Source of the DNA: Euzebya tangerina
GTDB taxonomy: Bacteria > Actinomycetota > Nitriliruptoria > Euzebyales > Euzebyaceae
NCBI RefSeq assembly: GCF_003074135.1
Contig: NZ_PPDK01000001.1
Coordinates: 1,550,001-1,614,000 of the forward strand
Reading direction: 5' to 3'
Length of the DNA: 64,000 nt
Under the pieces are notes generated by a model. It ran no database searches. It was not told the origin of the DNA and saw only the letters and a program-made list of their open reading frames with translations. The position numbers and the translations under genes were made by a program. Below, in pieces: positions 15,691 to 52,124 of this stretch (position 1 is its first letter; each line of letters opens with the position of its first letter).

Positions 15691-16494
15691 TCATGATCGG
15701 TATCCCTGGGCTCCGACCATGCCGCGATGGAACACCCGGTCGCCGACGACGTCGCTGTGGTCCCCGCGGTGCAGCACCCGCGCGTTGTCCCACATGACCA
15801 CATCACCAGGCATCCAACGATGCCGGAGAACCGTGTGGTCCTGTGTTGCGTGCGTCAGCAGACGGTCGACCAGACCCCGTCCGGCATCGGCCGACAGCCC
15901 ACTCACCGACGCACAACGATCCCGGGTCGAGAGGTACAGCGCCGGCCGACCGGTTCGGGGGTGTGGCCGCACGATGGGGTGGACCGCCTGGCGTTCCTGC
16001 TCCTCGCCCGGGTCGACACCGGTGACGACGTGGGTGATCGTCCGGCCGACCACTGCGGCGCTCAGCTCCTGATCCAGCGTGTCGAGTGCGACCGCCTGGT
16101 CGCTGAAGAGGGTCTCGCCGCCCTGCTCTGGCACTCGGATCGCACGGAGCGCGGTGTAGGACGGTGGACTCGAGACGTAGCTGGTGTCGGTGTGCCAGCG
16201 ACTGACCGGTGGACGCTCACGGCCCACGTTGCTGATCACGTTGAGGGAGGGTTCGTGGGGGACCGGCGCCTCGCCGGCGGTGAAGATCAGCGGACCGAAG
16301 CGACGGAGGAGTGTTGCAAAGCCCTGATCGTCGAGGTCGGGGTCGTGCATCACCAGAACGCCGTGATCGGCGAGGAGGTCGCGAAGCTGGTCGATCTCCT
16401 CCTCAGCGAGCTGGCTGAGCGACTGGGGGATCCCGTCGTCCCGCGCCACCGCGATCCGGACGCCGAACGGGTCCATGGGGGTCAGGTGCAGCAT
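15691..16494 (-). CDS. mysH: TauD/TfdA Fe(II)/2-oxoglutarate dioxygenase, MysH-like
   Basis: The 267-residue enzyme has the 2-His-1-carboxylate triad His101-x-Asp103 (WHTDTS) and His242 (ARVLHRGD), with a following Arg for 2-oxoglutarate. Alone it would be a generic TauD/TfdA member, but it is the last gene of an operon with MysA-, B-, C- and D-like genes. In some cyanobacteria a dioxygenase of this family, MysH, converts disubstituted mycosporine-like amino acids to palythines. That function is inferred from position. It begins 10 bases after the mysD-like stop. Confidence 0.78.
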   Translation of the reverse strand: MLHLTPMDPFGVRIAVARDDGIPQSLSQLAEEEIDQLRDLLADHGVLVMHDPDLDDQGFATLLRRFGPLIFTAGEAPVPHEPSLNVISNVGRERPPVSRWHTDTSYVSSPPSYTALRAIRVPEQGGETLFSDQAVALDTLDQELSAAVVGRTITHVVTGVDPGEEQERQAVHPIVRPHPRTGRPALYLSTRDRCASVSGLSADAGRGLVDRLLTHATQDHTVLRHRWMPGDVVMWDNARVLHRGDHSDVVGDRVFHRGMVGAQGYRS

Positions 16495-16504
16495 GGCGTC
16501 TCCT

Positions 16505-17545
16505 CTAGGTCGTCCGGTGCGTACGGATAGCGGCGGTCACACACTCGGCGAACAGTGCCGGTAGTGGGATGTCAGCCGCGGCAGCCATGGTCGTGATGAC
16601 GCTCTGCTCGGCGAAGGAGCAGTAGGGGCCGGCCTCCAGGAACCACGGCTGCCCGGCCGGGTCGATGCGGAAGTCGACGAGGCCGTACTGGCGGCAGCCC
16701 AGCGCCTGATGACAGGTTCGAGCCGCGGCCTGAACGGCCGGGACGATGGGATCGTCGTCGGCCACGATCCAGGCGTGCGCAGCGTCCTTGGCCACGAGGT
16801 GCAGCTGGTCGTCCTCATCTCTTCGCAGCTTGTCGCTGGCATCCCGGATGGGTTTGTTGACCGGGTCGACGCGATACTCCTCCAGCGGCAGGGCGACGAT
16901 CTCGCCCTCGAGTTCGAGGGTCCCACACCGCACCTCACGTCCCAGGGGGATGTACTGCTCGACCAGGGCCCTCGGTGCGACTGACCACGCGCCGTCCAGC
17001 GCCGGCCCGAGCTCCGCCTTCGCCCGGACCAGCGTCACACCGACGGAGTTGTCGGCATCAACCGGCTTGACCACCACAGGAGGCGACAGGCTGGGAGTCT
17101 GCGCCGGTTCGACGACCTCCGCGTCCGGCACGGCGACACCAGCCGCCGCAACCACCGCACGAGCCAGCGCCTTGTCAGCAGCCAGGGCCATCACGTGGGG
17201 AGGATTGCCGACGTAGGGCAGGTCGAGCAGATCGAGCAAGGCCCGGACGTGGGTCATGCCAGGCAGGTCGAACAGCTGGGGGATCACCACGTCTGGCGCC
17301 ATCTCGACCAGCCGCGCCACCGCCCGGTCCACCGACACCGACTCGGCGGCGGCCAGCGCCGTCTGGTCCAGGCTGGCGGGAAAGCGCCACGTCCCATCCG
17401 GGGCGAGGTCGACGAAGGAGAAGGTCCAGCGCGACGGGTCGGCACACGCGGCGGCGCAGTCACGGGCGTACAGATGCGACAGGTCCGCCATCTCCTGCGT
17501 GGTCGTGGCCCCGCTCAGGTGCAGCACATGGACGGGCGGGGGCAT
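16505..17545 (-). CDS. mysD: D-Ala-D-Ala ligase-like ATP-grasp enzyme, MysD-like
   Basis: The 346-residue protein has the ATP-grasp order of D-Ala-D-Ala ligases: VIPQLFDLPG, LDLPYVGNPP, PPVVVKPVDADNSVGVTLV (ATP lysine), ALVEQYIPLGREVRCG and a C-terminal Mg site VDFRID...FLEAG. In MAA clusters MysD joins a second amino acid to mycosporine-glycine to make an imine such as shinorine. Its ATG follows directly on the TAG of the mysC-like gene. The residue after LEA is Gly where peptidoglycan ligases have Asn, in line with a non-peptidoglycan role. The preferred amino acid is unknown. Confidence 0.83.
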   Translation of the reverse strand: MPPPVHVLHLSGATTTQEMADLSHLYARDCAAACADPSRWTFSFVDLAPDGTWRFPASLDQTALAAAESVSVDRAVARLVEMAPDVVIPQLFDLPGMTHVRALLDLLDLPYVGNPPHVMALAADKALARAVVAAAGVAVPDAEVVEPAQTPSLSPPVVVKPVDADNSVGVTLVRAKAELGPALDGAWSVAPRALVEQYIPLGREVRCGTLELEGEIVALPLEEYRVDPVNKPIRDASDKLRRDEDDQLHLVAKDAAHAWIVADDDPIVPAVQAAARTCHQALGCRQYGLVDFRIDPAGQPWFLEAGPYCSFAEQSVITTMAAAADIPLPALFAECVTAAIRTHRTT

Positions 17546-18931
17546 CTAGTCCCCACCGACCTCGACCAGCTTGCCGATGTTGAAGTCGATGCGGACCCAC
17601 TCGCGGCCGTGTCGCAGCGCATCCACGAGCAGCGCGGGGACCTGCAGGTGCGGCAGCAGGAGGAAGGGGAGGGGATCATCACCCCGCAGGACCGCGTCCC
17701 GACCTCGCCGGAGGATCCCAAGGCGCTCCGGGATGCGTGACGGCCGGGTGAGCATTCGCCACAGCTCGTGGTGCAGCCAGTACGTCGGTCGGCTCGACGC
17801 GTGCGGCACCAGCAGGCCGCTACCAGGGTCGAGGTAGGCCGCGGCGAGCGCGGGAAGGTCGTCGAACATCGTGATGGCCGAGTGCGTGCGCGGGTTGCAC
17901 TCGATTGCCACCGTCCGGCCCGTCTCGGTTCGGATGAAGTCGAAGGACACCTGCCCGGTCAGGTCGAGGTCACTGACGAACTGCTCCACCCAGGCCTGGA
18001 TGTCCGGCTCGTCGACCATCTCGTAGTTGACCTGGAAGGGGGAGGAGGCGCAGCAGGCCCAGACGCGGATGGTGCCGTCGCGAACGGTTGCGTGGGCGCA
18101 GAACTCCTGGCCCTCCACGAACTCCTGCAGGATCCATGGGCGGTCGGGGCCGATCGGCAACGAGGCCACGTGGGCGGCGGTCTCGGCCTGCGTCGGACGG
18201 GGCAGCCGGGTCAGGTCCAGGCGGTGCACGGGGTCGTAGGGAATGGACTTCAGGATCCAGGTCCGGCCGTCGTCGGGGAAGTCGAAGTCGAGCACCTGGG
18301 CCGGGTCGGTGATCAGGTGGGTCTCCGGCACGTCGAGGCCGAGAGCCGCCGCACGCGTGGCGAAGCGGTACTTGTCGTCCAGGTCGTCGATCACGTCCAC
18401 ATCGACGTGGAAGACCTCGCAGTGATCGGGGAGGAGCTTGCTGGACTCGGCGTCGTACCTGCTGGAGACGGGGGAGCAGACCGGGACGTACACGTCGACC
18501 TGCTCGCGTCTGACGATCCTCGCCAGCGCATCGGCGTAGTCGGGGTGGGATGGCGCCGGCACCACGTGGAAGGCGTCGACAGCGCGGCTGTAGCGATGCG
18601 CGCCCAGCCGATAGCGCGCGGTCTCGACCATGACCACCCGGTGACCGGCGGCGTGGAAGGCCCGGGCGAGGTGGAGCGACTTGGTCATCTTGCCGCCGCT
18701 CACCATGATGGTCAGCGGCCGATTCGTGCTCGCCGAGGTTGTCGGTGGGACGGGCCGGACGCGATCTCGACGTAGCTCTGCGCGTGCGGCCGCGGCAGCT
18801 GTCAGCGCCAGGTCGAGTGGAAGGGCAGCGGTCAGCAACCCGAGCGTTCCGACCGTTCGACCGACGCTCCGAAGGCCCGACCATGGTGTCTGCTGGTCGC
18901 TGCGAGGCGGTCCCGCAACCGTCTCAGTCAT
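17546..18931 (-). CDS. mysC: ATP-grasp ligase, MysC-like (4-deoxygadusol to mycosporine-glycine)
   Basis: The 461-residue protein has features recalled from MysC: an N-terminal hydrophobic segment (about residues 25-50), IMVSGGKMTKSLHLARAFH, RAVDAFHVVPAPSHP, WILKSIPYDPVHR (ATP lysine), ILQEFVEGQEFC, and the Mg/ATP site VAIECNPRTHSAI. MysC activates 4-deoxygadusol and couples it to glycine. The start overlaps the OMT gene by 8 bases. The IECNPRTHSA segment and its position between the OMT and the MysD gene make this the most diagnostic member of the cluster. Confidence 0.88.
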   Translation of the reverse strand: MTETVAGPPRSDQQTPWSGLRSVGRTVGTLGLLTAALPLDLALTAAAAARAELRRDRVRPVPPTTSASTNRPLTIMVSGGKMTKSLHLARAFHAAGHRVVMVETARYRLGAHRYSRAVDAFHVVPAPSHPDYADALARIVRREQVDVYVPVCSPVSSRYDAESSKLLPDHCEVFHVDVDVIDDLDDKYRFATRAAALGLDVPETHLITDPAQVLDFDFPDDGRTWILKSIPYDPVHRLDLTRLPRPTQAETAAHVASLPIGPDRPWILQEFVEGQEFCAHATVRDGTIRVWACCASSPFQVNYEMVDEPDIQAWVEQFVSDLDLTGQVSFDFIRTETGRTVAIECNPRTHSAITMFDDLPALAAAYLDPGSGLLVPHASSRPTYWLHHELWRMLTRPSRIPERLGILRRGRDAVLRGDDPLPFLLLPHLQVPALLVDALRHGREWVRIDFNIGKLVEVGGD

Positions 18932-19775
18932 CGCCGAGCACCCGCATCAGCGTCACACCGTCCCGGAGCGGGATGAGGACCTGCTCCACCCGTTGCTCGG
19001 CGAGGACCGCCTCGTTGAAGGTCGCGATGGCCGCGCCAGAGCCGCTGGGTGAGCCGGTGGCGTACGGCTGGCCCTGCAGCAGCGTGTTGTCGGCCAGGAT
19101 CAGCCCGCCCGGGCGGACCAGGCGGTCATCGAGCAGCCGCGTCAAGTAGCCCTGGTAGCCGCCCTTGTCGGCGTCGAGGAACGCCACGTCGAAGACCTGC
19201 TGCTCGGCGGTCAGCGCCGCCAGGGTCTCAGTAGCGGGCCCGACGCGGATCTCGACCTTGTGACCGTGCGGCGACCGCTCGAGCCGGTCCCGCGCGAAGT
19301 CGGCCACGCGTGGATCGACCTCGCAGCCGATGACGCGGCCGTCGTCGGGCAGCCCCTCTGCCATGGCCAGCGAGGAGTAGCCGCTGAAGAGCCCGATGTC
19401 GAGGACGGACCGGGCCGCCGCGACCCCGACCAGCATGCGCAGCAACTGGCCCTCCACATGGCCCGACAGCATCTCGCGCTCGACGCCCGGCGTGGCTCCG
19501 TCCGCGTCGACAGCGCTCCAGTCGTGCCGATTGGTGTCGGCCTCCAACTGCTCGAGCGCTGCGGACGCCGGCGTCGTGCACCGGGCGACGTAGGGCTCGA
19601 GACCCGCGACGCGAGCCGTCGCGCCGCGCAGATCATCGAGGATGTCCTGGTCCACGTCGCCGTGAGCGACGAGGCGATCCTCGACGGCCTCGAGCAGCGC
19701 GGCGGCGATGCCGATGGGCGTGACCGGACGCAGGCGTGGCGCGCCAGGCCCGGCGGCCTCAGGCGACGCGCTCAC
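18924..19775 (-). CDS. mysB: SAM-dependent O-methyltransferase, MysB-like
   Basis: The 283-residue class I methyltransferase has VLDIGLFSGYSSLAMAEGLP (SAM motif I), GCEVDPRVADFAR (motif II), FDVAFLDADKGGYQGYL and GGLILADNTLLQG (metal/catalytic region), as in cation-dependent OMTs of the MysB type. In MAA biosynthesis MysB methylates demethyl-4-deoxygadusol to 4-deoxygadusol. The GTG/ATG-coupled ends overlap both neighbours, so it is a fixed part of the operon. Confidence 0.86.
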   Translation of the reverse strand: MSASPEAAGPGAPRLRPVTPIGIAAALLEAVEDRLVAHGDVDQDILDDLRGATARVAGLEPYVARCTTPASAALEQLEADTNRHDWSAVDADGATPGVEREMLSGHVEGQLLRMLVGVAAARSVLDIGLFSGYSSLAMAEGLPDDGRVIGCEVDPRVADFARDRLERSPHGHKVEIRVGPATETLAALTAEQQVFDVAFLDADKGGYQGYLTRLLDDRLVRPGGLILADNTLLQGQPYATGSPSGSGAAIATFNEAVLAEQRVEQVLIPLRDGVTLMRVLGDD

Positions 19776-20446
19776 GATGCGGCAGCGGTCCCCGAGACGG
19801 CCGCGACCAGGGCGGCGGGATCAAGCGCCGCCTCGACCTGGTCAGCCCGGCCGAAGTCGTGGCGGGCGGTGTTGGCATTCGGCAGGGCCACACAACGGAT
19901 GCCGGCATCCGCGGCTGCGTCGACGCCGCCGACGTTGTCCTCCACCGCGATGCACTCCTCTGCGGTCAGCTCGAGTTGCTGCAGCGCCGTCAGGTACACC
20001 TCCGGTGCCGGCTTGCCCTCGTCGACGTCCTCGCGGGTCAGGACCAGATCCAACTCGTCCTGGCTGATGCCGGCAGCTCGCAGGATCGCCGCGACGTTGA
20101 GCGGCGACGTCGTGGTCGCCATACCGACGGCCACATCACTCGCCTGTGCAGCCCGGATCGTCTCCAGCACACCGGGCCGGGCACTCGGCGAGGTCTCGGC
20201 CAGCAGTTGCTGGAAGCGCGAGGACTTCGTGGCGTGCACGGCGTCGGCGTCGACCTCGACGCCGCGATCGGCGCCGTATGCGGCAATGCGCTGGGCGCCA
20301 CCGTTGCTCTGGAGCAGGTCGCGGTACAGCTCCTGATCCCAGTGCCAGTTCAGGCCGTGGTGCTGGAAGGCGTCGTTGAACGCCTGACGTTGCAACTCTG
20401 AGGTGTCGACGACGGAGCTGATCGATCCGAAGAGGATGGCGGGCAT
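19772..20446 (-). CDS. HAD-fold protein lacking the catalytic Asp (beta-phosphoglucomutase-like)
   Basis: The 224-residue protein has the fold of CbbY/beta-phosphoglucomutase HAD proteins: helical cap, motif II MATTTS, motif III Lys in GKPAPEVYL and motif IV AVEDNVGG. Motif I, normally FDxDGVL.DT, reads LFGSISSVVDTS, so both Asp residues that form the phospho-enzyme are replaced (Gly7 and Ile9). It should not act as an ordinary phosphatase or mutase. It sits inside the MAA operon between the cyclase and OMT genes with a 4-base overlap to the latter. A binding, chaperone or regulatory role with the cyclase is possible. Confidence 0.82.
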   Translation of the reverse strand: MPAILFGSISSVVDTSELQRQAFNDAFQHHGLNWHWDQELYRDLLQSNGGAQRIAAYGADRGVEVDADAVHATKSSRFQQLLAETSPSARPGVLETIRAAQASDVAVGMATTTSPLNVAAILRAAGISQDELDLVLTREDVDEGKPAPEVYLTALQQLELTAEECIAVEDNVGGVDAAADAGIRCVALPNANTARHDFGRADQVEAALDPAALVAAVSGTAAAS

Positions 20447-20485
20447 GTGATGGGCCTTTCTGGTGTGGTCCGGGAACGTGGTGGA

Positions 20486-22213
20486 TCAGCGGCTGGTGGC
20501 GGTGCCGATGGTGGTGTGGCCGACGGTGGCCGGATCCTCCAGTCCGACGTCGCTGCAGAGCGGTTCGATGCCGCGACCCGCCCGCGGATAGCTGGCCGCC
20601 AGGCCGCGGAGGTGGTCAACCGTGGCCTCGAGTTCGGTCCGCTCGAGCGTGTCGATGTAGCCGCATCTGCCCACATCGCCGGTCGGCACCGGGGCCACGA
20701 GGCGGCCGCCGCGCTTCTGCGTGATCCGCTCCTGTGCGAGCCACAGCAGGTCACGGTCCTCGAGGATGTCGTGCCACAGGCTCAGACCGAACCCGCTCTG
20801 CAGGCGCAGGATGCGGTGCAGGACCGACTCGGGAATCATGCCGGCACGATTCGCGGCCGTGGCGCCCAGCGCCATCCCGATCGACACCGCGTGGCCGTGC
20901 AGCAGGCCAGCGTCGATCTCGAAGCCTGGCGACCAGGTGTGCCCATAGGCGTGCGGGCGAGCCTGGTGAGTCTCGTAGAGGTTGTCGTACTCCGCCTGGA
21001 CGTAGCTCCGCAGCGCACCGGCGAGGATCTGCCGGGAGTTCGCCGCCAGCACGGGATCGTCACCCGGCAGTGTCCCGAAGCGTGAGGTCACCAGTTGCGG
21101 GCCGACGGCCTCGAGTTGGCTGAAGAGGTCGGCGTCCTCGACCACGGCCATCTTGATGATCTCCGCCACGCCGTGACGGAGCCAGCCCTCGCGCAGCGTG
21201 GCGAAGAACGTCCGGTCGGTGATGGTCAGGATCGGCGGGTGGTAGGCGCCGACCAGGTTCTTGTACCCGAACCCATCACAGCAGGTCCGTGGCGACGGTC
21301 CCGCGTCGATGCCGGCAACCAGTGAGGTGGCGAGCATCACGTACGGCGTGTTGCGGTGGTACAGCGCACAGGCGAGACCGGCGACATCGGTCAGGACACC
21401 CCCACCGACCACGAGCACCGGCTCGCGGCGTGACACGCCCAACTCCTTGAAGTGGCCCAGCAATCGCTCGACGGTGCCGAGGCCCTTGTCGACCTCCATC
21501 GCCCGCACCACCAGCTGATCGACGGTGATGTCGTGTGCCGCGAAGTAGCCCTCCAGTGAACCGTCGAGGTGCCCCGCGACGTTGCTGTCGACCACGGCGA
21601 CGACCCGGCCGGCAGGTGCCCACACATCGCGGAGCAGTCGATTGTCGGGGTCCAGCACGTCCTCGACGATGCGCAGAGAGGTGAACGTCTGCTGGGTCAT
21701 CGCCGCCTCGATGATGGTGTCGTCCGAGCTGGACAGGACGTGGCCGTCGCTGCGCCGATACGGCGAGGTCGGGTACACCGCGTGCGGGTCGGACTGCACC
21801 AGTTGATCCGCGAGATCTGCCCAGGCGCTGCCGCGCGGCCCGGTGCGAAGCAGGTCCAGCAGTCGTGCAGACCCCTCCGCGCGAGTGCGCAGACCCTCGG
21901 CAAGACGCCACCAGTCCGCGGCTACGCCGGCATCCACCGCCGCCGCAACCTCCGCTATCAGCCCCGCCACCGAGACGACCGAGTCGTTGAGCGAGGTGCG
22001 CAGCTGCCGCACGGCCGGGAGTGCGGTCAACGCGCCCTGGCTCTGCAGATCACGGCCGACCTTCTCGTCGTAGACATCCAGACCCAACACGCCGTGCAGC
22101 AAGACCTCCAAGGCCGGGTCGGTGACCACGGCGGCGAGGTCACTGGTCCCGCTGCGAAGGGCAGCCAGATCGGCGTTCTCGACGTACTCGCTGATCAGCG
22201 CGGACACGGTCAT
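20486..22213 (-). CDS. mysA: Sedoheptulose 7-phosphate cyclase (DHQ synthase-like), MysA-like, with N-terminal extension
   Basis: Residues 170-575 are a dehydroquinate-synthase-like cyclase: VVAVVDSNVAGHL, EPVLVVGGGVLTDVAG (NAD loop), YKNLVGAYHPP, RHGVAEIIKMAVVED (Zn Glu), AYGHTWSPGFE and LLHGHAVSIGM (Zn His residues). GHTWSP is typical of sugar-phosphate cyclases rather than true AroB. In MAA clusters it makes 2-demethyl-4-deoxygadusol. The first 165 or so residues are an extra, helical, unrecognised domain. I chose ATG 22213; an earlier ATG at 22288 lacks a ribosome site. Gap of 39 bases to the HAD gene; first gene of the operon. 2-epi-5-epi-valiolone synthase is the alternative. Confidence 0.82.
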   Translation of the reverse strand: MTVSALISEYVENADLAALRSGTSDLAAVVTDPALEVLLHGVLGLDVYDEKVGRDLQSQGALTALPAVRQLRTSLNDSVVSVAGLIAEVAAAVDAGVAADWWRLAEGLRTRAEGSARLLDLLRTGPRGSAWADLADQLVQSDPHAVYPTSPYRRSDGHVLSSSDDTIIEAAMTQQTFTSLRIVEDVLDPDNRLLRDVWAPAGRVVAVVDSNVAGHLDGSLEGYFAAHDITVDQLVVRAMEVDKGLGTVERLLGHFKELGVSRREPVLVVGGGVLTDVAGLACALYHRNTPYVMLATSLVAGIDAGPSPRTCCDGFGYKNLVGAYHPPILTITDRTFFATLREGWLRHGVAEIIKMAVVEDADLFSQLEAVGPQLVTSRFGTLPGDDPVLAANSRQILAGALRSYVQAEYDNLYETHQARPHAYGHTWSPGFEIDAGLLHGHAVSIGMALGATAANRAGMIPESVLHRILRLQSGFGLSLWHDILEDRDLLWLAQERITQKRGGRLVAPVPTGDVGRCGYIDTLERTELEATVDHLRGLAASYPRAGRGIEPLCSDVGLEDPATVGHTTIGTATSR

Positions 22214-22292
22214 GGCGGCGTGGGCTCTCCCGGAGACGTTGTGTGGGACCTGGAACCGGTGTCGGTCGGCGGTCGCTGCACAACTCATTCCG

Positions 22293-25537: not shown

Positions 25538-25572
25538 CATCCGGGTTACGCGCTGCCATGCTTGTGGCTCCA

Positions 25573-25595
25573 GCAGCCGGGTAAGGCCGGGCTGC
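25573..25595 (+). other. Leader hairpin before the CWB2 exoprotein gene
   Basis: GCAGCC at 25573-25578 pairs with GGCTGC at 25590-25595, with two more G-C pairs inside and a short loop, 32 bases before the chosen start. No U-run follows, so a terminator for the upstream gene is not supported. It does not match a riboswitch consensus that I can recall. Confidence 0.35.
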
Positions 25596-25627
25596 ACCCG
25601 CAGTCCATGCGCCCTCGGGAGGGGTCC

Positions 25628-27739
25628 TTGACCACGTCACGCCGAACACGTCCGCTCGCAGTCATCGCGCTGCTCACCGTGTTGGCCACCGCCGCCGCCA
25701 TCCTGGGTCTGGCTCAGCCGGCCCAGGCCGAGATCGTCAGGCTGGCGGGGGCGGGCCGCGCCGAGACCGCCGCGTTCGCGTCCGGCGAGACGTTCGGGCC
25801 CGGTCTGCCGATCGTGGTCGTGGCCTCTGCCGTCGACTTCCCGGATGCGCTCGCCGGCGCGAGTGTGGCCGGCAGGTTCGGCCCCGTTCTGCTGACGGGC
25901 GTCGACTCCGTGCCCGACGCCACCGCGTCAGAGCTCGGCCGCCTGGCGCCGGAGCGCGTGGTGTTGCTGGGCGGCACAGCGGCCATCAGCACCGAGGTCG
26001 AGCAGGAGCTCGCGCTGATCTCGCCGACTTCGACGGTGGAACGGATGGGCGGTGCCACCCGCATCGCGACCGCGGAGCAGATCGCGGAGCAGACCTTCCC
26101 CGATGGCACCGAGACCGTGATCATCACCTCGGGGGCGGACTTCCCCGATGCTGTCGTCGCCGGCCCGCTCGCGGCCGGGACACCCGCGCCGATCCTGCTC
26201 AGCAACCCGGACGGGCTGCTCGACAGCACGCTGGCGACGATCGCGCGACTGGAGGCTACGGACGCCATCGTCGTCGGCGGGCCGGCGGTGTTGGACCTGG
26301 CGGTGGAGGAGCAGCTCGTGGCCGCCGGTCTCGATGTCGTGCGCGTGTTCGGCGAGAACCGCTTCGAGACCGCCGCGGCGTTGACCTCGGTTGTCCCGCA
26401 GGCCGAGTCCGTCCTGCTCGCGACCGGGGAGGCCTTCCCCGACGCGTTGTCGGGGGGACCCATCGGGGCCGCGCGGGGTGCGCCACTGCTGCTCACGGGG
26501 TCCCAGACACTGGCCGAGCCGGCCCGGTGTGAGATCGCCCGACTGCGGCCGGATCGCGTGCTCATCCTCGGCGGGCCGAGCGCCGTCTCGGAGGAGGTGG
26601 CCGAGCAAGCTGAGCAGGCACGGACCAGCGAACCCTGCGCCGAGCCGACCGAGCCGACCGAGCCGACTGGTCCGACTGAGGGGCCGACCGAGGAACCCAC
26701 CACCGACCCGACAGTCGAGCCCACCGTCGAGCCGACCGACGAACCGACCGACGAACCAACCGAGGAGCCCACGGCAGAGCCCACCGAGGAACCGACCCCT
26801 GATCCCACCGTCCCCCCGCTGGAGGAGCCGGTCAGCCTGTCGATCACGACGGGACCGATCGCCGATGTCGTCACCGCGACCTCGGGCCAGGTGGCGTACG
26901 CCTCCAACGCCGGGCGGAACCAGGTCGAAGTCGTCGACCTGGCAACCCGCGAGATCACGGACAGCGTGCCGACCGGCTCACTGCCGGCAGGCATGGACCT
27001 GACGGTTGATGGCGCGGAGCTGTGGGTCGCCAATGCCGGCGGCAGCAACTTCACGGTGATCGACACCGCGACGCTCAACCGGCGCACCGTCCAGGTCGAC
27101 GTGGCCGATGGCACCCGCCCGCTCTCGATCGTGATCGTCGACGCGACCACGGCCCTGTTCACCACGACCTTCGACGGCAGCGGATTTGGGGGTCGGATGT
27201 ACGAGTTGGATCTGACGACCGGTGCGGTCGTCATTCGGACGGACTACGGGGTCCGGGGTGAGACCACGCAGGCGACAGTGCTGGCCCGGTCAGCCGACCG
27301 AAGCACGGTTGGCGTCGTCGAGGGCGGCAGCTCGGGTGGCCGGGTCAGCGTGTACACCACGGCTCAGGATGCCTTCACGGCTGATGCGCAGACTCGTGGA
27401 TTCAGGGACACCATCGCCGTCAGCTCGGACGGGAGCCGGATCCTGGTGGGCGGCAGGACCGCTGAGACGCTGGTGCTCGACAACTCGGCGGGACTGCTCG
27501 GGACGATCACCGGCGCCGGTGGGGAGGACGTCACCGTCGACCCGACTGACCCGAGCCGTGGCTACCGCGTGAGCGACGGCGGCGTCATCGTCCTCGACCT
27601 GGACCGCTACCTGGTCGAGGGGGATGCCATCCCGGTCGAGGACGGCGTCGTCCTGGCGATGACGCCCGACGCCGGCATCATCGTCGTGGGCGGCGCCGAG
27701 TCGGTGGATCTGCTGCCGCCGGCACCGGAGCGCGGGTAG
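25628..27739 (+). CDS. Secreted protein: three CWB2 repeats, PT-rich linker, beta-propeller
   Basis: The 703-residue product has a signal peptide (about residues 1-34, ending QPAQA) and three cell-wall-binding type 2 repeats (about 35-335), each with a PDALSG/PDALAG- or PDAVVAG-like motif and a VVLLGGTAA / AIVVGGPAV / VLILGGPSA strand. A linker of about 60 residues made of Pro-Thr-Glu/Asp steps follows, then a YVTN-type beta-propeller (about 405-700; VAYASNAGRNQVEVVDL, LWVANAGGSNFTVIDT). It is likely wall-anchored and exposes the propeller. I chose TTG 25628 because GGGAGGGG lies just before it; ATG 25607 has no such site. Confidence 0.88.
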   Translation: MTTSRRTRPLAVIALLTVLATAAAILGLAQPAQAEIVRLAGAGRAETAAFASGETFGPGLPIVVVASAVDFPDALAGASVAGRFGPVLLTGVDSVPDATASELGRLAPERVVLLGGTAAISTEVEQELALISPTSTVERMGGATRIATAEQIAEQTFPDGTETVIITSGADFPDAVVAGPLAAGTPAPILLSNPDGLLDSTLATIARLEATDAIVVGGPAVLDLAVEEQLVAAGLDVVRVFGENRFETAAALTSVVPQAESVLLATGEAFPDALSGGPIGAARGAPLLLTGSQTLAEPARCEIARLRPDRVLILGGPSAVSEEVAEQAEQARTSEPCAEPTEPTEPTGPTEGPTEEPTTDPTVEPTVEPTDEPTDEPTEEPTAEPTEEPTPDPTVPPLEEPVSLSITTGPIADVVTATSGQVAYASNAGRNQVEVVDLATREITDSVPTGSLPAGMDLTVDGAELWVANAGGSNFTVIDTATLNRRTVQVDVADGTRPLSIVIVDATTALFTTTFDGSGFGGRMYELDLTTGAVVIRTDYGVRGETTQATVLARSADRSTVGVVEGGSSGGRVSVYTTAQDAFTADAQTRGFRDTIAVSSDGSRILVGGRTAETLVLDNSAGLLGTITGAGGEDVTVDPTDPSRGYRVSDGGVIVLDLDRYLVEGDAIPVEDGVVLAMTPDAGIIVVGGAESVDLLPPAPERG

Positions 27740-27783: not shown

Positions 27784-28758
27784 CTATTCGGAGGACAGCA
27801 GGGTGCGGGCCGACCGGAAGAACACGGCGGCTGCCTCGACCTGATCCTCGGCGGCCAGGAGCTGGTGGAGGGTCAACGCGGCACCGCCGAACGGGGTCGA
27901 CCAGAAGGGTCCCTCCTGGGTGGTCCAGGGCGCGACGTAGAGGTAGGGCTCCCCGACGGCGTCGTCGCCCGGCGAGGCGCCGAAGCTCGCCCGCGTCCCG
28001 GCATCGGCATCGCCCAGCTCGATGGCCGGGTCGAAGTGCTCCGGCCACAGCTGGACCCGGGTGTCGGAGGGGCGGCCCGCAGCGTCCCGCAGGAGCTCGA
28101 GGACCAGGGTGCCGAACCCGAACCAGCTGTCCAGGAAGCCCACAGCCTCGGCGTCGACCGTGAGGGGCTCATCCAGCGCCGGGATGGACGGCATGTCGTG
28201 GAAGTCGATCCCCTCCGGCGCACCTGGCTCGACGTCGACGAACCGGCCGGCTGCAGCCAACGTCGAGATCGGCTCGGACTGCACCGTGTCGCCGACCTGG
28301 ACGACCAGGTCGGTGCCCTCAACCCGGACCTGCCGATCGTCGGCGAAGAACGGGGTGCCGAACCCGCCCTTGGTCCAGCGCAGCCCGATCTTGCCGGTGT
28401 GCTGGTGCCGCACGGTGGCGATCACCGTGAACGCCAGTGCCGTCAGCGCTGACCGGGTGGCCTCCAACGTGGTCGGCGCCGGTCCGACGCGGGCCACGCC
28501 ACCGAGCCAGTGCGTGCTGGCCCACTCGCCCAGTTCCGGCCGCGCGACGACCACTTCGTCCCAGGTCGACCCCGCTGCCGAGGTGGGGCCGACACTGCCG
28601 ACGCGCCCGTCGTCGTCGGTGGGGACGGTGGGGTCGTCGGCGAACCACGGGCCGACGTCGACGGCTGGCGCTGAGGGTTCCAGGACCAGTCCCAGGCGTC
28701 CGTCGCCCAACCGTCGGGTTGCCTCGGCCTGCGGGTTGCGTGCAACGGGGTCGGTCAT
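27784..28758 (-). CDS. Conserved protein of unknown function
   Basis: I do not recognise this 324-residue protein with certainty. It has no signal peptide or membrane segment. The second half has a WPEHFDPAIELG segment followed by FGASPGDDAVGEPYLYVAPW, a pattern I associate with uncharacterised actinobacterial proteins. The first half contains RLGDGRLGLVLEP and a GLRWTKGGFGTPFF strand. ATG 28758 follows GAGGAG. It converges with the CWB2 gene and stands alone; no operon partner is visible. Confidence 0.7.
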   Translation of the reverse strand: MTDPVARNPQAEATRRLGDGRLGLVLEPSAPAVDVGPWFADDPTVPTDDDGRVGSVGPTSAAGSTWDEVVVARPELGEWASTHWLGGVARVGPAPTTLEATRSALTALAFTVIATVRHQHTGKIGLRWTKGGFGTPFFADDRQVRVEGTDLVVQVGDTVQSEPISTLAAAGRFVDVEPGAPEGIDFHDMPSIPALDEPLTVDAEAVGFLDSWFGFGTLVLELLRDAAGRPSDTRVQLWPEHFDPAIELGDADAGTRASFGASPGDDAVGEPYLYVAPWTTQEGPFWSTPFGGAALTLHQLLAAEDQVEAAAVFFRSARTLLSSE

Positions 28759-28891
28759 CACATCTCCTCTGTCCGGCTGGCCGCCGAATTCGACACGATC
28801 GTGCAGAAACCCCCGATGGCGTGGGTTGGGCCCCGATCGTGCACCATCCGGGCGTCGCGGCCAGGGCGGCTCGGCGTGGTGGCGGTAGCGA

Positions 28892-30889
28892 TCACAGCAG
28901 CTCGACGTCGGTCACGATGTGGACCAGCGCCGGCCCGTCGAGCGCCACGGCCTCGCGCAGCGCCGGCTCCAACTCCGCCGCGGTCGTGACCCGCCACGCC
29001 CGCACGCCGCAGCTCTCGGCCATCGACACCCAGTCGGGGTTGACCAGGGACGTCTGCCACACCGGCCACTCACCAGCCCGCTGCTCCTTGCTGATCTTGC
29101 CCAACTCCTGATTGTCTAGCAGGACGTGGCAGATCGGCATGCCGTACTTGCCGATCGTGGTGAGCTCCATCGCGTACTGACCCAGGCCACCATCGCCCGA
29201 TACGGAGATCACCTTGCGGGTGTCGCCGACCGCCGCGTAGGCGCCCATCGCACCGGGGAGCGCGAACCCGATCGAGCCGAGGTACCCCGACATCAGGACG
29301 TCCTGACTGCCGGAGGTCTCCAGGTACCGCCCGAATGAGTAGGTGTTGTTCCCCACGTCGACACTGAAGACCGCGTCGGCCGGGGCCGTCCGCCCAAGCG
29401 CCTCGAAGACCGCCGCCGAGTTCACGCCCTCGCCCTGGTCATCCCGCCGACGGCTGGCCTTCTCCTCCCGCCAGATCGCCCAGCGCTCCGCGACCTCAGC
29501 ACGATGATCCACACAGCGGATGTCGTCGGGCAGGCGGTCGCGGATGACCGATGCCGTGGTCCCGACGTGGCCGAGCAGCGGCAGGTCAACCGGGTGATAG
29601 CGGCCGAGGCCCTGCTGGTCCAGGTCGACCTGGATCGTCGGCTTGTAGTCGGCGATCCCGGTGTGGTTCGAGAAGGAGGCGCCGAACACCACGAGGAGGT
29701 CCGACTCGTTCATGAACCAGCTGGCGATCGGGGTCCCCGATCGTCCGAGGACGCCGCACCCGAGCTCGTGATCGTCCGCCACCAGGCCCTTGGCCTTGAA
29801 GGTCGTCAGCACCGGTGCGCCGATGGTCTCAGCCAGGCCCATCACCTCGGTCATCTGCCCGCGAGCTCCGGCACCGACGATGATGACCGGACGTTCGGTG
29901 CCGGCGATCATCTGCACCGCCCGGTCCACCTCGGCCAGCGGTGGGTGGACCTGCGGCGCGCCGACCCGGCCCTCGGGGCCGCGGGGCTCGGCGTCGGGTG
30001 CGGGGTGGGTCTGGACCTCGTCGGGGAAGGAGAGGTGGACGACGTCCCGCTCGACGATGGCCGTCTTGGCAGCTTTGGCGGCGAGCTCCGCGACGTCGGA
30101 CCCGGCCACGATCTTGGCCTGATAGCGCGCGACGTCGCTGAAGGCCGTCGTCAGGTCCAGGTCCTGGAAGGCACCCTGCCCGGCAACCGAGGAGGGAACG
30201 AGACCGGAGAGCGCCACCACCGGCGCGCGGTCGACCTTGGCGTCGTACAAGCCGGTCAGCAGGTTGGTCGACCCCGGACCAGCAATCCCGAAGCACCCGG
30301 CGATGCCGCCCGTCAGCTTGCCGTAGGCACTGGCCGCGAAGGCCGCGGCCCCCTCATGGCGGATGCCGATGAAGGTCAGGTCACCTCGCTCTTCGGCGAC
30401 CCGCATGGCGTCGGCCAGGCCGAGGTTGGAGTGCCCCACCATCCCGAAGACGTGGGTCATGCCCCACGCGATCAGGGTCTCGATCGCGATGTCGGCCACG
30501 GTGCGCTCCCGCTCGGCCGGGAGAGGCAGCGCCGCGTACACGCCGTCATCGCGCACCTCCACCCGGAAGGCTGCCGGGGCGTCGCCGAACGCGCTGGGTG
30601 GAACGCCGTTGCAGGGGGAGTAGTCGTACCCGTGCCAGGGGCACCGCAGCCAGCCCTTCTCGATCGAGCCCTCGCCGAGTGGACCGCCCTGGTGCGGACA
30701 GTGGTTGTCGAGGACCCCGAACCCGTCGTCGCTTCTGGTGACCGCGTACGTACGGTCCTCGATGGCGACGGTGGTCACGCGGCCGACCGGCAGCTCGTCG
30801 GTTCCGATGATGCGGTGCCACTCGAAGGGGCCGTCCGGCAGGTCCGGCGCCTCGGTCGACGGTGTCTCGGCGGCCGCATCAGACGTCAT
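28892..30889 (-). CDS. Rieske [2Fe-2S] domain fused to a ThDP-dependent enzyme (pyruvate oxidase/acetolactate synthase type)
   Basis: Residues 20-120 form a Rieske domain with Cys64-x-His66 (CPHQGG) and Cys83-x2-His86 (CPWHGYDY). From about residue 128 a complete ThDP enzyme follows: N-terminal Pyr domain with the catalytic Glu in GIRHEGAAAFAA, a central Rossmann-like domain (PVIIVGAGARGQM), and a C-terminal PP domain with the ThDP/Mg motif SGDGGLGQYAMEL...LLDN. The total of 665 residues equals a 110-residue Rieske plus a normal 550-residue enzyme. The Rieske may pass electrons from the ThDP intermediate. ATG 30889 is preceded by AGGG. Neighbours give no substrate. Confidence 0.88.
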   Translation of the reverse strand: MTSDAAAETPSTEAPDLPDGPFEWHRIIGTDELPVGRVTTVAIEDRTYAVTRSDDGFGVLDNHCPHQGGPLGEGSIEKGWLRCPWHGYDYSPCNGVPPSAFGDAPAAFRVEVRDDGVYAALPLPAERERTVADIAIETLIAWGMTHVFGMVGHSNLGLADAMRVAEERGDLTFIGIRHEGAAAFAASAYGKLTGGIAGCFGIAGPGSTNLLTGLYDAKVDRAPVVALSGLVPSSVAGQGAFQDLDLTTAFSDVARYQAKIVAGSDVAELAAKAAKTAIVERDVVHLSFPDEVQTHPAPDAEPRGPEGRVGAPQVHPPLAEVDRAVQMIAGTERPVIIVGAGARGQMTEVMGLAETIGAPVLTTFKAKGLVADDHELGCGVLGRSGTPIASWFMNESDLLVVFGASFSNHTGIADYKPTIQVDLDQQGLGRYHPVDLPLLGHVGTTASVIRDRLPDDIRCVDHRAEVAERWAIWREEKASRRRDDQGEGVNSAAVFEALGRTAPADAVFSVDVGNNTYSFGRYLETSGSQDVLMSGYLGSIGFALPGAMGAYAAVGDTRKVISVSGDGGLGQYAMELTTIGKYGMPICHVLLDNQELGKISKEQRAGEWPVWQTSLVNPDWVSMAESCGVRAWRVTTAAELEPALREAVALDGPALVHIVTDVELL

Positions 30890-30979
30890 GAGCGCCCTAT
30901 CACACCCTCGATCATCCGATCTGTCCACCGGCAGGTGGTCGCTGATCTCGTCCTGGGCGACACTGGCCAGGTGACTGCC

Positions 30980-31507: not shown

Positions 31508-34500
31508 TCACCGCTCCGCGATCGCGTCGAGGGTGGCACGCAGTTCGGCCGCGACGTCAGCGGTCACCGCCCGCTCGCCACCGATGATCCGCACCTGGGT
31601 GACGCCGAGCTCCTGAAGTGCGCGGATGGTGTCGGCCGGCAGGACGTCCGGCTCGGTCAGCAGCACCGGCGTCCCGGTCAGCGCGGCCACGGGCGCGATC
31701 GCCAGCCCGTCGGGGAATGCGCGGCCGGTGGCGACGAATGCCGAGACCGAACGGCCGAACGGCTCCATGGCCACGGCCGCGGTGGCGAACCGGTTCTCAC
31801 CGGCACGTCGAACCACACTGTCCACGCCGGGCTCGTCCGCAAGTGCTGCGGCGACATCCTCGCTGATCGCTGCCGTTCCCCCGAGCAGCTCGACCGTGAC
31901 GGTCCGGCCATCGAGATACGCCGTCAGCTCGGCGGGAATGGAGTCGGAGTTGGTCAACAGGATCGGACTGCCACGCCACCCGGCGACCGCGCCTCCCGTC
32001 AGCGCGTCGGGGAAGTCCGCTCCGGTCGCCAGGTAGATCCGGTCGGCGGACGGCAGAAAGCGATCAGCCAGGGCTGCCGCAGTGGCGAAGCGGTTGGACC
32101 CGAAGACCCGGTCGACGAACGCGTCGGGCGCCGCCTCCCTGATCTCCTCGATCACCGGGTCCTCGATCACGGCGGCTCCGCCGATCACCGTGACCCGCCG
32201 CGGCTGCAGTCGCTCCAACTCCGCGGCCGTGGCCGACGGCAGGGCGGTACGCCCGGCCAGGAGGATCGGGGCGCCGACCGCGGCGGCCGCAGGGCCGGCG
32301 GTGAGCGCATCGGGGAAGTTCTCCCCGGACGCCACGAACACGTGCTGGGCCCCGGCCGGCCACTGCAGCCGCGAGATCGACGCCGCGGTCTGGTACCGGT
32401 CGTTGCCAGCCGTGCGCTGCAGGACCACCGACTGCTCCGGCACCGGGGCGGTCTGAACCGTGATGGAGGCCCGATCAAGTAGCTGACGGACCTCCTGGTC
32501 GTCCCGTCCCGCCACCCCGTACAGGCTGATGACGTGTTCTCCTGGTGACAGGTCGGCTGCAGCGACGCCGTCGGACTGCAGGATCCGTCCGTCGACGTCG
32601 GACGCCCACTCCACCCGATGGGTCGGGGCGTTGCTGGTCGACTCGGCGCTCAGTGGGATGATCTCGCCGTAGGTGTAGGTGCTCGAGTCGACCGGGTCCA
32701 CGATGGTCCCGGCCACCCACGGTTGGTCGGATGAGACGTAGTCGAGTGTGATCAGGTCCGCGTCAGTCCGGATGCCGTCGGAGGCGACGACGCGGACGCG
32801 AACGACGGCGTCGGTCCAGGTGAACGACGACAGGTCCAGATCGAGCTGGTTCGCGGTGATGCCCGCCGCCACAGGGATCCAGACGTCCTCCGGGCGCACG
32901 AGCACGTCGTAGGACAGCGCGTCACCGTCGTCGTCCGTCGCCTCCCAGGTCAGGTTCAACGGGCCGGTGACCTGACCGCTGACATCCGTGGTGATCTCGA
33001 TCTGCGGTCGTGACGGCGACACGGCGACCTCCGAGACCACAGCGCTGTCGGCCAGGTTCACGACCTGGATCGTGTGTGCCGCGCCCTCGCGGAGACTCGT
33101 CGGAAGCCCGACGGCGATGGGGTCCTGGCTGACCGACTCGGGATCGCTGGCCGGGCCGAGTGTGCCGTCGTCGAAGAGCAGCGGAACACCGGGTTCGCCG
33201 CGCAGGTCGACGTCGAGTTGGGCGATCGGCTCGGGCTCACCGTCACGGATGATGTCGATCCGGTGGGTCGGGTCGCTCGGGGCGGCGACGGCGGTCGGGC
33301 GCGGCCGGAGGTCAGCCACCTCGAGCGCGTCGCCGTCGCGCCCAGGCGTGATGGCGATGCTGTCGCCGAAGTCGACCCGCAGTTCGACGTCCTCGCCGAC
33401 GATCCGGTTCCACTGGGCGCCACCCAGCCACTGGGTCGGCGCGAAGGCCCGATCCGGCGCGCCGCAGTACCCCATGAGGTTCGGCATCGTGCTGCGGGGC
33501 ATGACCCCTCTGATGGCCGTGCCGGGGCTGCTGCCGGTGTGTCCCCAGAAGCCCGCGCCGTCCCCATCTGGCCCCAGGGCCGCGACGTCTCGGCCGTCGA
33601 TCGTCACCGTGTCGGGCCACTGGTCTGCGGCAACGGCGCCACAGGGGTCGGCGAAGCGCTCCCCGTCCTCGGCGGTGGCGGCGTGCGGCAGGCCCAGCGA
33701 GTGACCGATCTCGTGCAGGTGGACCAGTCGGGTCTGGAACGCCGCTCCGGCCGAGGTGGCCGCGTCGAATCCGTTGGCGCGCCCGCCGATCCCCGGGATG
33801 TCGAACAGGCCATAGACGACCGTCGACTCCGGATCCTCGGTGACCCGCCACTGCTGCTCGATCGTCAGCGCGAGGATGTCGCCGAGCAGGTCCCGGTGGG
33901 CGTCGACCTGGCCATCGCGGCGGGCCTGCACGAACTGATCGAACTCGTCCTCATCGTCCGCGGGGTCGTCAACCAGACCCATCGCGACGGCATCGACGGC
34001 CGCCGTCCGGGCGGCGTCGCGTGCGTCCAGGTACTCGGTGGCGTCGTAGCTGCGGGCGGACTCGACGTAGGACCACCTCCGCAGGTCGAACGGCAGTCCG
34101 CGCCGCGCCCACGCAGCCAGGACTGCGGCTGCCGCCGATGCCTCGCGGGGGTCGGCCTCGAAGACCACCTCCTCGCCGGCGTCGGTCTGCCGCACCACAT
34201 CGGTGCCGATGAACACGATCTCGCGCTCGAAGCGCTGCGGTGTCAGCGTCACCTCGCAGTCGGCATCGATGTCCAGGCAGCTGACCTGCCCGGAGGCGGG
34301 AACGAAGCGAACGGTCACCTGACGGCCGTCCCGCAGGTCGGTGGCCAGCACGTGGAACTCGAGCGCCGCCGCTCGCAGCTCCGCAAGGGATGCATCGGGG
34401 CCGAGGTTGCTCGCGCTGCCGCCCGCTGGACCGTACTCCCGGATGAGGGTGCCGTCGGCCTCGCGCAACTCCAAGCGTCCCGTCCACTCGCTGATGCCCG

Positions 34501-35341
34501 CGCCGGCGTGCCCGGTCACCCGGACCATGGCCCGCTTCCCCGCGACCAACGCGGCGTCATTGGCCAGGTTCTGCACGCCCTGATTGACCTCGATTCCCTC
34601 CACATCGATCGAGGGCGTGAAGCAACCGTCAGCCACCGAGGAGGGGATGACACCCCGGTTGGTGGTCGCCGTGAACCCACCGCCGCCGAAGACGAGTGGC
34701 CCGTACTCGGCGGCCAGCTCCTCGACGGAGTGCCGACTGTCCTCCGCCGCGACCACCGAGAAGCGATCGGCGCCGGCGTCGACCAGGAAGTCCACCGACG
34801 GGACGGTCTCTCCCTCGACGTTCTCGATCCCGTCCGTCAGCAGGCACACCGTCGTCTCGGTCGCGGCGCCGCCGTGGGAGACCGCTTCGGCCGCGCCACG
34901 CAGGCCGGCCGTCACGGGGGTCGACCCCTCCGTCTGGGCATGCCCGCGGACGACGGCACCGATCTCGGCCGCGTCATCCTCCGTGTCCAGCAGTCGGTTC
35001 GAGACGATCTCCTGGACCAGCGGCACCTCCGATCCCACGGCGCCCGGCCCGGTGAAGACCACGACGGAGACGGCAGAGACGCCCAGGGGCAGGTGGTCGC
35101 GGCGACGCAGGGTGACGTCGACACCGCGGGTGATCGCCCGCCACTCCACCGGCGTGACGGACCGGGACGCATCGAGGACGAACACGACCTCTCGCTCCGG
35201 CGCTGCCTCCTGGCTCGGCTGTGCGCGACCGGGGCGGGCTGGGGTCAGCAGGCTCGTGAGCAAGCCGGCGAGCAGGACCCAGACGACCGCGGGGCGGTGG
35301 GACGTCCGGCGTGGTCTCCCCCTGGTGTTGGCAGCCGTCAT
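31508..35341 (-). CDS. Large secreted VWA / metzincin-type protease / CWB2 protein
   Basis: The 1277-residue protein has a signal peptide (about residues 1-40), a von Willebrand A domain (about 48-215; VVFVLDASRSV MIDAS strand, TTVCLLTDGIENV), a long middle region with HEIGHSLGLPH near residue 543, the HExxHxxGxxH zinc site of metzincins, Ig/cadherin-like repeats (about 805-905; ATDDDGDALSYDV), and three C-terminal CWB2 repeats (about 985-1270; PDALTAGPAA, PDALTGGAVA, PDGLAIAPVA). It is probably a cell-wall-bound adhesive metalloprotease. It contains few Cys residues. It is transcribed alone; its stop is 15 bases from the converging lipoprotein gene. Confidence 0.88.
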   Translation of the reverse strand: MTAANTRGRPRRTSHRPAVVWVLLAGLLTSLLTPARPGRAQPSQEAAPEREVVFVLDASRSVTPVEWRAITRGVDVTLRRRDHLPLGVSAVSVVVFTGPGAVGSEVPLVQEIVSNRLLDTEDDAAEIGAVVRGHAQTEGSTPVTAGLRGAAEAVSHGGAATETTVCLLTDGIENVEGETVPSVDFLVDAGADRFSVVAAEDSRHSVEELAAEYGPLVFGGGGFTATTNRGVIPSSVADGCFTPSIDVEGIEVNQGVQNLANDAALVAGKRAMVRVTGHAGAGISEWTGRLELREADGTLIREYGPAGGSASNLGPDASLAELRAAALEFHVLATDLRDGRQVTVRFVPASGQVSCLDIDADCEVTLTPQRFEREIVFIGTDVVRQTDAGEEVVFEADPREASAAAAVLAAWARRGLPFDLRRWSYVESARSYDATEYLDARDAARTAAVDAVAMGLVDDPADDEDEFDQFVQARRDGQVDAHRDLLGDILALTIEQQWRVTEDPESTVVYGLFDIPGIGGRANGFDAATSAGAAFQTRLVHLHEIGHSLGLPHAATAEDGERFADPCGAVAADQWPDTVTIDGRDVAALGPDGDGAGFWGHTGSSPGTAIRGVMPRSTMPNLMGYCGAPDRAFAPTQWLGGAQWNRIVGEDVELRVDFGDSIAITPGRDGDALEVADLRPRPTAVAAPSDPTHRIDIIRDGEPEPIAQLDVDLRGEPGVPLLFDDGTLGPASDPESVSQDPIAVGLPTSLREGAAHTIQVVNLADSAVVSEVAVSPSRPQIEITTDVSGQVTGPLNLTWEATDDDGDALSYDVLVRPEDVWIPVAAGITANQLDLDLSSFTWTDAVVRVRVVASDGIRTDADLITLDYVSSDQPWVAGTIVDPVDSSTYTYGEIIPLSAESTSNAPTHRVEWASDVDGRILQSDGVAAADLSPGEHVISLYGVAGRDDQEVRQLLDRASITVQTAPVPEQSVVLQRTAGNDRYQTAASISRLQWPAGAQHVFVASGENFPDALTAGPAAAAVGAPILLAGRTALPSATAAELERLQPRRVTVIGGAAVIEDPVIEEIREAAPDAFVDRVFGSNRFATAAALADRFLPSADRIYLATGADFPDALTGGAVAGWRGSPILLTNSDSIPAELTAYLDGRTVTVELLGGTAAISEDVAAALADEPGVDSVVRRAGENRFATAAVAMEPFGRSVSAFVATGRAFPDGLAIAPVAALTGTPVLLTEPDVLPADTIRALQELGVTQVRIIGGERAVTADVAAELRATLDAIAER

Positions 35342-51287: not shown

Positions 51288-52124
51288 TCACCGGCGGCGT
51301 TCCATCAGGACGGTGTCGCGCCAGACGCCGTCCAGCTTGCCGATCCGCTCGCGCATGCCGACGATCCTGAAGCCGGACGACCGGTGCAGTCGGATGGATG
51401 CTCGATTCTCCGGGAAGATCTGCGCCTGAAGGGTCCACAGGCCCGCCTCGTCGGCGGCGTTGACCAGGCGGTCGATGAGGGCCACGCCGACACGGCGGCC
51501 ACGGAACTGCTCGTCGACGTAGATCTGCGTCTCGGCCACACCCGCGTAGCACGCCCGGTCCGAGACCGGGGTGAGGGCGGCCCACCCGGCGATGGTGCCC
51601 TCGACCTCGGCGACCCACCGGTGGTCGCGGTGCCACTTGGCAGCGAGTGCGTCGGGCGTCGGCGCCTCCGTCGTGAAAGTGGCATTGCGGGTGGCGATGC
51701 CCTGGACGTAGATGTCTGCGACTGCTTGGAGGTCGGCGTCGGTCATGGCTCGGACGGCCACATCCTCCTGTACGTCCTCGGGGCAGCACGGCAGGGTGTC
51801 CAGCGTGCCCATGACGGCATCGGCGGCGTGGGGGAGCCCGGTGCAGCAGGCCTCGTTGACCCGGACCTGGGTCGACGTTCCGACCTTGCGCAGCTCCACG
51901 AAGCCGGCGTCGGCGAGCAGCTTGATGTGATGCGACGCGGTCGGCTGCGCGATGCCGACGCGCTCTGCGATGGTGCCGATGGGCAACTCCTCGGTGGAGC
52001 TGGCCACGGCGTGGAGCACGCGGACTCGTGTCGGGTCGCTGAGCGTGGCGAACCAGGCGGCGTAGGTGCTCGCGGCATCCTCCGAGAGCCCGCTGGTGGC
52101 CACGGTGGGGAGGGTTGCAGTCAT
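51288..52124 (-). CDS. ArsR-family HTH fused to GNAT acetyltransferase (ArsR-ArsN type)
   Basis: Residues 20-100 form an ArsR/SmtB winged helix (LSDPTRVRVLHAV, IAQPTASHHIKLLADAGFV), followed by CC pairs at EACCTGL and LPCCPED that may bind As(III). Residues 120-275 form a GNAT domain like phosphinothricin acetyltransferase (AVADIYVQGIATRNATFTTEAP, FRGRRVGVALI, LHRSSGFRIVGMRERIGKL). ArsN1 enzymes of this type acetylate arsinothricin, an organoarsenical antibiotic. It is divergent from a flavoprotein/MFS pair, with three repeated operator-like sites between. The fusion links sensing with detoxification. The substrate is inferred. Confidence 0.87.
   Translation of the reverse strand: MTATLPTVATSGLSEDAASTYAAWFATLSDPTRVRVLHAVASSTEELPIGTIAERVGIAQPTASHHIKLLADAGFVELRKVGTSTQVRVNEACCTGLPHAADAVMGTLDTLPCCPEDVQEDVAVRAMTDADLQAVADIYVQGIATRNATFTTEAPTPDALAAKWHRDHRWVAEVEGTIAGWAALTPVSDRACYAGVAETQIYVDEQFRGRRVGVALIDRLVNAADEAGLWTLQAQIFPENRASIRLHRSSGFRIVGMRERIGKLDGVWRDTVLMERRR

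Follow-up and report, generated by a model that had tools for sequence, protein, structure and literature searches.

Here, we describe a six-gene operon on the minus strand of a 64,000-nucleotide stretch of Euzebya tangerina DNA (contig NZ_PPDK01000001.1, positions 1,550,001 to 1,614,000; hereafter, "the window"), located between window positions 15691 and 22213. With a probability that we place at roughly 0.78, the operon makes a palythine-type mycosporine-like amino acid (MAA) sunscreen, with a protein of the HAD family as a predicted non-catalytic partner and with a first-step cyclase that appears to have been replaced or to have diverged rapidly. The operon is largely of a known kind, with one rare divergent component, the cyclase, and one re-interpreted component, the HAD protein. 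The initial annotation of this stretch had recognised the MAA operon, a reading that stands, but overlooked both the divergence and extension of the cyclase and the loss of the aspartates from the HAD protein; its view that such a cluster is not well described does not hold, since HAD and TauD genes have already been reported with actinobacterial MAA genes (PMC11888242) and its headline is thus known in kind.

All six open reading frames have been recovered where they had been placed before, in the order cyclase, HAD protein, O-methyltransferase, MysC, MysD and dioxygenase; they form a single tight operon, as the intergenic gaps measure only 39, -4, -8, 0 and 10 bp, and scans for promoters and terminators at both ends of the operon have found none. 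The open reading frames and the Pfam and NCBIfam matches, from which the families of the six proteins have been assigned, agree with the families and the IECNPRTHSA site read initially. The cyclase, at the mysA position (20486..22213, 575 residues), is a divergent sugar phosphate cyclase resembling desmethyl-4-deoxygadusol synthase (DDGS) and matches PF01761 (DHQ_synthase, 6e-20); the CbbY-like pseudo-HAD protein (19772..20446) matches the Pfam HAD family (1.5e-20); the MysB-type O-methyltransferase (18924..19775, GTG start) matches PF01596 (Methyltransf_3, 5e-48) and is ~50-57% identical to mysB of other MAA clusters. MysC (17546..18931), an ATP-grasp mycosporine-glycine synthase with the IECNPRTHSA site, scores 423.5 bits against PRK06849 (cut-off 406) and is 51-66% identical to MysC across 80 scanned clusters; MysD (16505..17545), a second amino acid ligase that is D-Ala-D-Ala-ligase-like, matches PF07478 (Dala_Dala_lig_C, 1.9e-17); and the TauD/TfdA Fe(II)/2-oxoglutarate dioxygenase (15691..16494), to which we assign the predicted palythine-forming step, matches PF02668 (2.8e-51).

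The same six genes occur in identical order, at 57-65% identity, in a genome of the same class and another family (G036:C210, locus L035; hereafter, G036). A MysC scan of named genomes has returned 192 relatives, and the 80 loci examined among these, from Cyanobacteriota, many Actinomycetota and one Melainabacteria metagenome-assembled genome, have the same core as the window; because the six-gene set recurs in G036 and the core in dozens of genomes, the arrangement is far beyond chance. Among loci with intact flanks, the HAD gene is found in 42 of 42 and the TauD gene in 40 of 42 of the actinobacterial type, with which the Melainabacteria locus, itself truncated, is counted; the actinobacterial cluster L069 has the HAD gene and no detectable TauD, and L093 has a TauD fragment only. 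In the cyanobacterial loci with intact flanks, both genes are present in 2 and neither in 16, and the HAD gene accompanies TauD throughout the sampled cyanobacteria, save in L084, which is truncated. Across 397 actinobacterial genomes, sampled evenly, exactly six have an MAA-type HAD scoring above 200 bits, and they are the ones with a DDGS or a window-type cyclase; the next-best HAD scores 108 bits. In a tree of concatenated MysB, MysC, MysD and dioxygenase sequences, the window and G036 form a pair that falls within the actinobacterial MAA clusters and whose branches are of ordinary length, in support of the initial call of an MAA operon. Relatives of the cyclase occur in 2 of 66 genomes of the class, and in none of the other genomes of the genus; this rarity within the class makes transfer or loss likely. 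As a separate observation, a mysABC(D) cluster of Nostoc sp. HK-01 (L124, plasmid1) is carried on a mobilizable plasmid.

The first-step cyclase stands apart from the ordinary MysA as a new and rare form whose sequence is enlarged and has diverged very far. Few MAA genes in the sample are as conserved as MysA (median identity in ordinary clusters 68.7%; cyanobacteria versus actinobacteria, 68.8%); the cyclases of the window and G036 share 68.9% identity, yet reach only 37% (window) and 36% (G036) with the remaining MysAs, a drop to which the other five genes of the operon show nothing comparable. Translation most likely starts at the ATG at 22213, which is closely preceded by GGGAG and yields 575 residues; an in-frame start at 22288 would yield 600, and the cyclase residues below are numbered in this 600-codon frame, from which 25 is subtracted for the 575-residue protein. 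The best match of solved structure is the DDGS Ava_3858 (5tpr, 238 bits), followed by ValA (4p53, 185 bits), a 2-epi-5-epi-valiolone synthase (EEVS), and the closest fold to the cyclase model is likewise that of 5tpr, ahead of ValA. When the pair formed by the window and G036 cyclases is placed in a tree with AroB, EboD, EEVS-type and DDGS sequences, it comes out as sister to all DDGS (support 100/98), and the DDGS clade (100/99) excludes it; its stem measures 2.45 substitutions per column. A true AroB is ruled out by this placement: the grouping with AroB, which the initial annotation had asked to be checked, gives way to a grouping with DDGS. The approximately unbiased (AU) test does not reject (p 0.2) a cyclase nested with the actinobacterial clusters that neighbour it in the four-protein tree, so that a paralogue may have taken the place of MysA or the common stem may have gone through a burst of divergence, and a firm claim of non-orthologous replacement has been dropped. 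A search of the window's genome for a canonical DDGS elsewhere has found none, the sole other match being of the AroB type, at 30%.

The cyclase retains 87 of 160 near-invariant DDGS columns, the metal ligands E376, H450 and H464/H466, and the DDGS-specific residues E433, A447, W452, H466 and C307, the first four of which distinguish DDGS from EEVS. We take the fingerprint positions to be E254/A268/T347 in DDGS (Ava numbering) versus L267/D281/H360, in agreement with our alignment columns. That fingerprint sites of this kind exist is confirmed by PMC4426668. In the window cyclase, E433 and A447 are DDGS-like, while the third site, Thr in DDGS and His in EEVS, aligns with Lys525 (20714..20716). 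The substrate/NAD loop has been rewritten as well: GPSPRTCCDGFGYKN (21257..21301) aligns with SVAIKVAVNHxxxKN of DDGS and is the same in the window and G036 apart from one Y/F, both copies having R334 for the lysine and D338 for the asparagine of two columns that are invariant in DDGS; the confidence of the AlphaFold2 (AF2) model is low here (311-323, 575-residue numbering).

Ahead of the catalytic part lies an N-terminal extension of ~170 residues (21689..22213), predicted with low confidence to be all-helical: the predicted local distance difference test (pLDDT) score of the AF2 model is below 50 across nearly all of residues 1-153. The extension is common only to the window and G036 cyclases (34-37% identity), and searches of Pfam, NCBIfam and PHROG have given no usable family match. 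An EboA domain fused to an EboD-like cyclase has been ruled out (hhalign probability 0.4%; the cyclase does not group with EboD in the tree), and a weak match in G087 (E 5e-4, one of 394 genomes) is put down to chance, as it sits in an EF-G-like gene.

The loop rewritten in both members, the lysine at the third fingerprint site, the deep branching outside all DDGS and the orphan N-terminal domain would also suit a cyclase of new activity, with another substrate or product, leading to a non-canonical MAA or a gadusol-like core; separately, an uncharacterised "DDGS?" clade has been marked as possibly of other activity (PMC5133447). The HGH segment and all but one of the three fingerprint residues are nonetheless of the DDGS type, and since the downstream MysB, MysC and MysD show nothing unusual, their acceptor is most probably 4-deoxygadusol as before. 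We consider a new activity unlikely, and equally doubtful the fuller proposal that the pair represents a new sedoheptulose-7-phosphate cyclase subfamily, with an orphan helical domain and an altered loop, which replaced MysA and makes a core other than canonical desmethyl-4-deoxygadusol (DDG); if this were true, the sunscreen would have a new chromophore or a new decoration on its core. With an enlarged cyclase of 37% identity in an operon that is ordinary in other respects, nature has run an experiment on the residues that make DDG, and the window enzyme offers a compact test object for the divide between EEVS and DDGS.

The HAD protein is closest in sequence to CbbY (4uat/4uar, 137 bits), and its model (pLDDT 95.6) superposes on CbbY with a Foldseek template-modelling (TM) score of 0.87. 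Its motif I is degenerate, with GSISS (20414..20428) for DxDGT, as is that of every MAA-cluster copy examined: the pattern is F/L-GS(I/L/M)(S/G)(T/S), with the nucleophile and the acid/base aspartate both gone, while motifs II (TTTS), III (KP) and IV (ED) are largely retained; an FDVDGT-like motif I is kept in CbbY and in the lower-scoring HADs of the phylum sample. Because the motif-I aspartates are lost, the protein can no longer be an aspartate phosphatase, and the residue states identify the MAA-cluster HAD as a pseudo-phosphatase, which is a new finding. From its co-occurrence with the other genes, its most likely role would be that of a non-catalytic binding partner, the TauD step being the simplest choice. 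The loss of the nucleophile from all examined clusters changes the question posed by PMC11888242, from which substrate is hydrolysed to which ligand is bound by a pseudo-enzyme. An active phosphatase with a non-canonical nucleophile, for example Ser8 or Ser10, might explain why Ser8 is invariant in a 30-sequence alignment, why motifs II to IV largely persist and why the association with MAA clusters is near-complete, but with both aspartates missing from every MAA-cluster copy and with no separate phosphatase needed by DDGS, we regard it as improbable. Outside MAA clusters, a HAD with a degenerate FGSIGT motif I lies beside TrkA/TrkH genes on the Roseobacter litoralis plasmid pROLI81 (L130, 2989-3660); as there are no annotated MAA genes nearby, pseudo-HAD proteins are not confined to MAA clusters.

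The dioxygenase had been called "MysH-type", a label that names the wrong family: published MysH is a phytanoyl-CoA dioxygenase (PMC10510106, PMC11378024), and the Pfam search gives the window protein no PhyH match up to E 0.1. MysI is the name given to one TauD-type MAA dioxygenase, that of Nostoc sp. UHCC 0926, and both MysH and MysI have been proposed to hydroxylate a glycine substituent, leading to a palythine (PMC10510106). The H101, D103, H242 triad and the distal R253 are present in 47 of 47 aligned TauD copies. HAD and TauD are conserved companions of actinobacterial MAA genes (PMC11888242), and a 2018 meeting abstract, as cited there, has the expressed Rhodococcus fascians operon with both genes producing shinorine, palythine and palythine-serine. 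By alignment, MysD carries Leu250/Ala258 at the two omega-loop positions, and because enzymes with this L-A pattern prefer serine and form shinorine (PMC11983340), palythine-serine, reached via shinorine, is the likeliest predicted product. In two Actinomycetospora loci (L062, L073), the TauD between B and C scores ~100 bits against the window gene, far more divergent than in sister clusters, and its specificity is possibly different.

The reactions, each of which we infer from the identity, order, co-occurrence and residue states of the genes, would run as follows. The cyclase, which in the window lineage may have been replaced by, or have diverged rapidly into, a new form with an N-terminal extension, would convert sedoheptulose 7-phosphate to DDG, and the O-methyltransferase would convert DDG to 4-deoxygadusol; MysC would then add glycine, giving mycosporine-glycine, and MysD would preferentially add serine, giving shinorine. 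The TauD dioxygenase would hydroxylate the alpha carbon of the glycine, upon which the C-N bond would break and leave the primary amine of palythine-serine, and the HAD protein, with its phosphate-binding T/K and acidic metal motifs kept, may bind either TauD or a phosphorylated or acidic intermediate.

Several points weigh against this proposal. The cyclase departs from DDGS at 73 of the 160 near-invariant columns, including the loop lysine and asparagine and the third fingerprint residue, so that DDG formation is not assured; the serine rule applied to MysD was established on cyanobacterial enzymes; and the predicted TauD reaction is carried over from related clusters. That the cluster is decaying, with the cyclase as a relaxed, non-functional relic, would account for the very long cyclase stem but is highly improbable, as the identity between the window and G036 cyclases is that usual among normal MysAs, their catalytic motifs are the same and neither has a stop, and the six genes are intact in two genomes from different families.

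Several other genes of the window stand out. Near the operon, two large proteins (25562-27739, plus strand; 31508-35341, minus strand) have three CWB2 cell-wall binding repeats each. At 28892-30928 (minus strand), a Rieske [2Fe-2S] domain precedes a complete thiamine pyrophosphate enzyme in an unusual fusion, similar to pyruvate oxidase or acetolactate synthase and under all NCBIfam cut-offs shown; the adjoining gene (27784-28761, minus strand, 325 residues) has no Pfam or NCBIfam match. The gene at 51288-52124 (minus strand) joins an ArsR-type helix-turn-helix to a GNAT acetyltransferase similar to ArsN1 (150 bits, against a cut-off of 170) and may be a self-regulated resistance gene of the arsinothricin type.

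Among known systems, the closest are the clusters of Rhodococcus fascians and Pseudonocardia alni (PMC11888242), which share the five ordinary genes (HAD, O-methyltransferase, MysC, MysD and TauD) at ~45-66% identity; actinobacterial HAD and TauD clusters typically run HAD-A-B-(TauD)-C-D-(TauD), whereas the window runs A-HAD-B-C-D-TauD and differs further by its divergent, N-terminally extended cyclase. Cyanobacterial mysABCD of the Anabaena variabilis Ava_3858 type has the same cyclase, O-methyltransferase, ATP-grasp and ligase core, and supplies the best cyclase match (5tpr), but the window cyclase is only ~37% identical to it, and most scanned cyanobacterial clusters are without HAD and TauD. 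EboA and EboD of the ebo operon are set apart from the window cyclase, which lies outside the EboD clade and has an N-terminal part that is not EboA-like, and the xylulose-1,5-bisphosphate phosphatase CbbY resembles the window HAD in fold and sequence, but not in motif I. MysH of Nostoc linckia NIES-25 is like the window dioxygenase in the predicted hydroxylation of the glycine side chain that leads to palythines and differs in its PhyH family; MysI, predicted to act in the same way, is a TauD/TfdA protein like the window enzyme, a likeness at the level of the family, and, unlike the window gene, lies in a mysF-mysI-mysE cluster.

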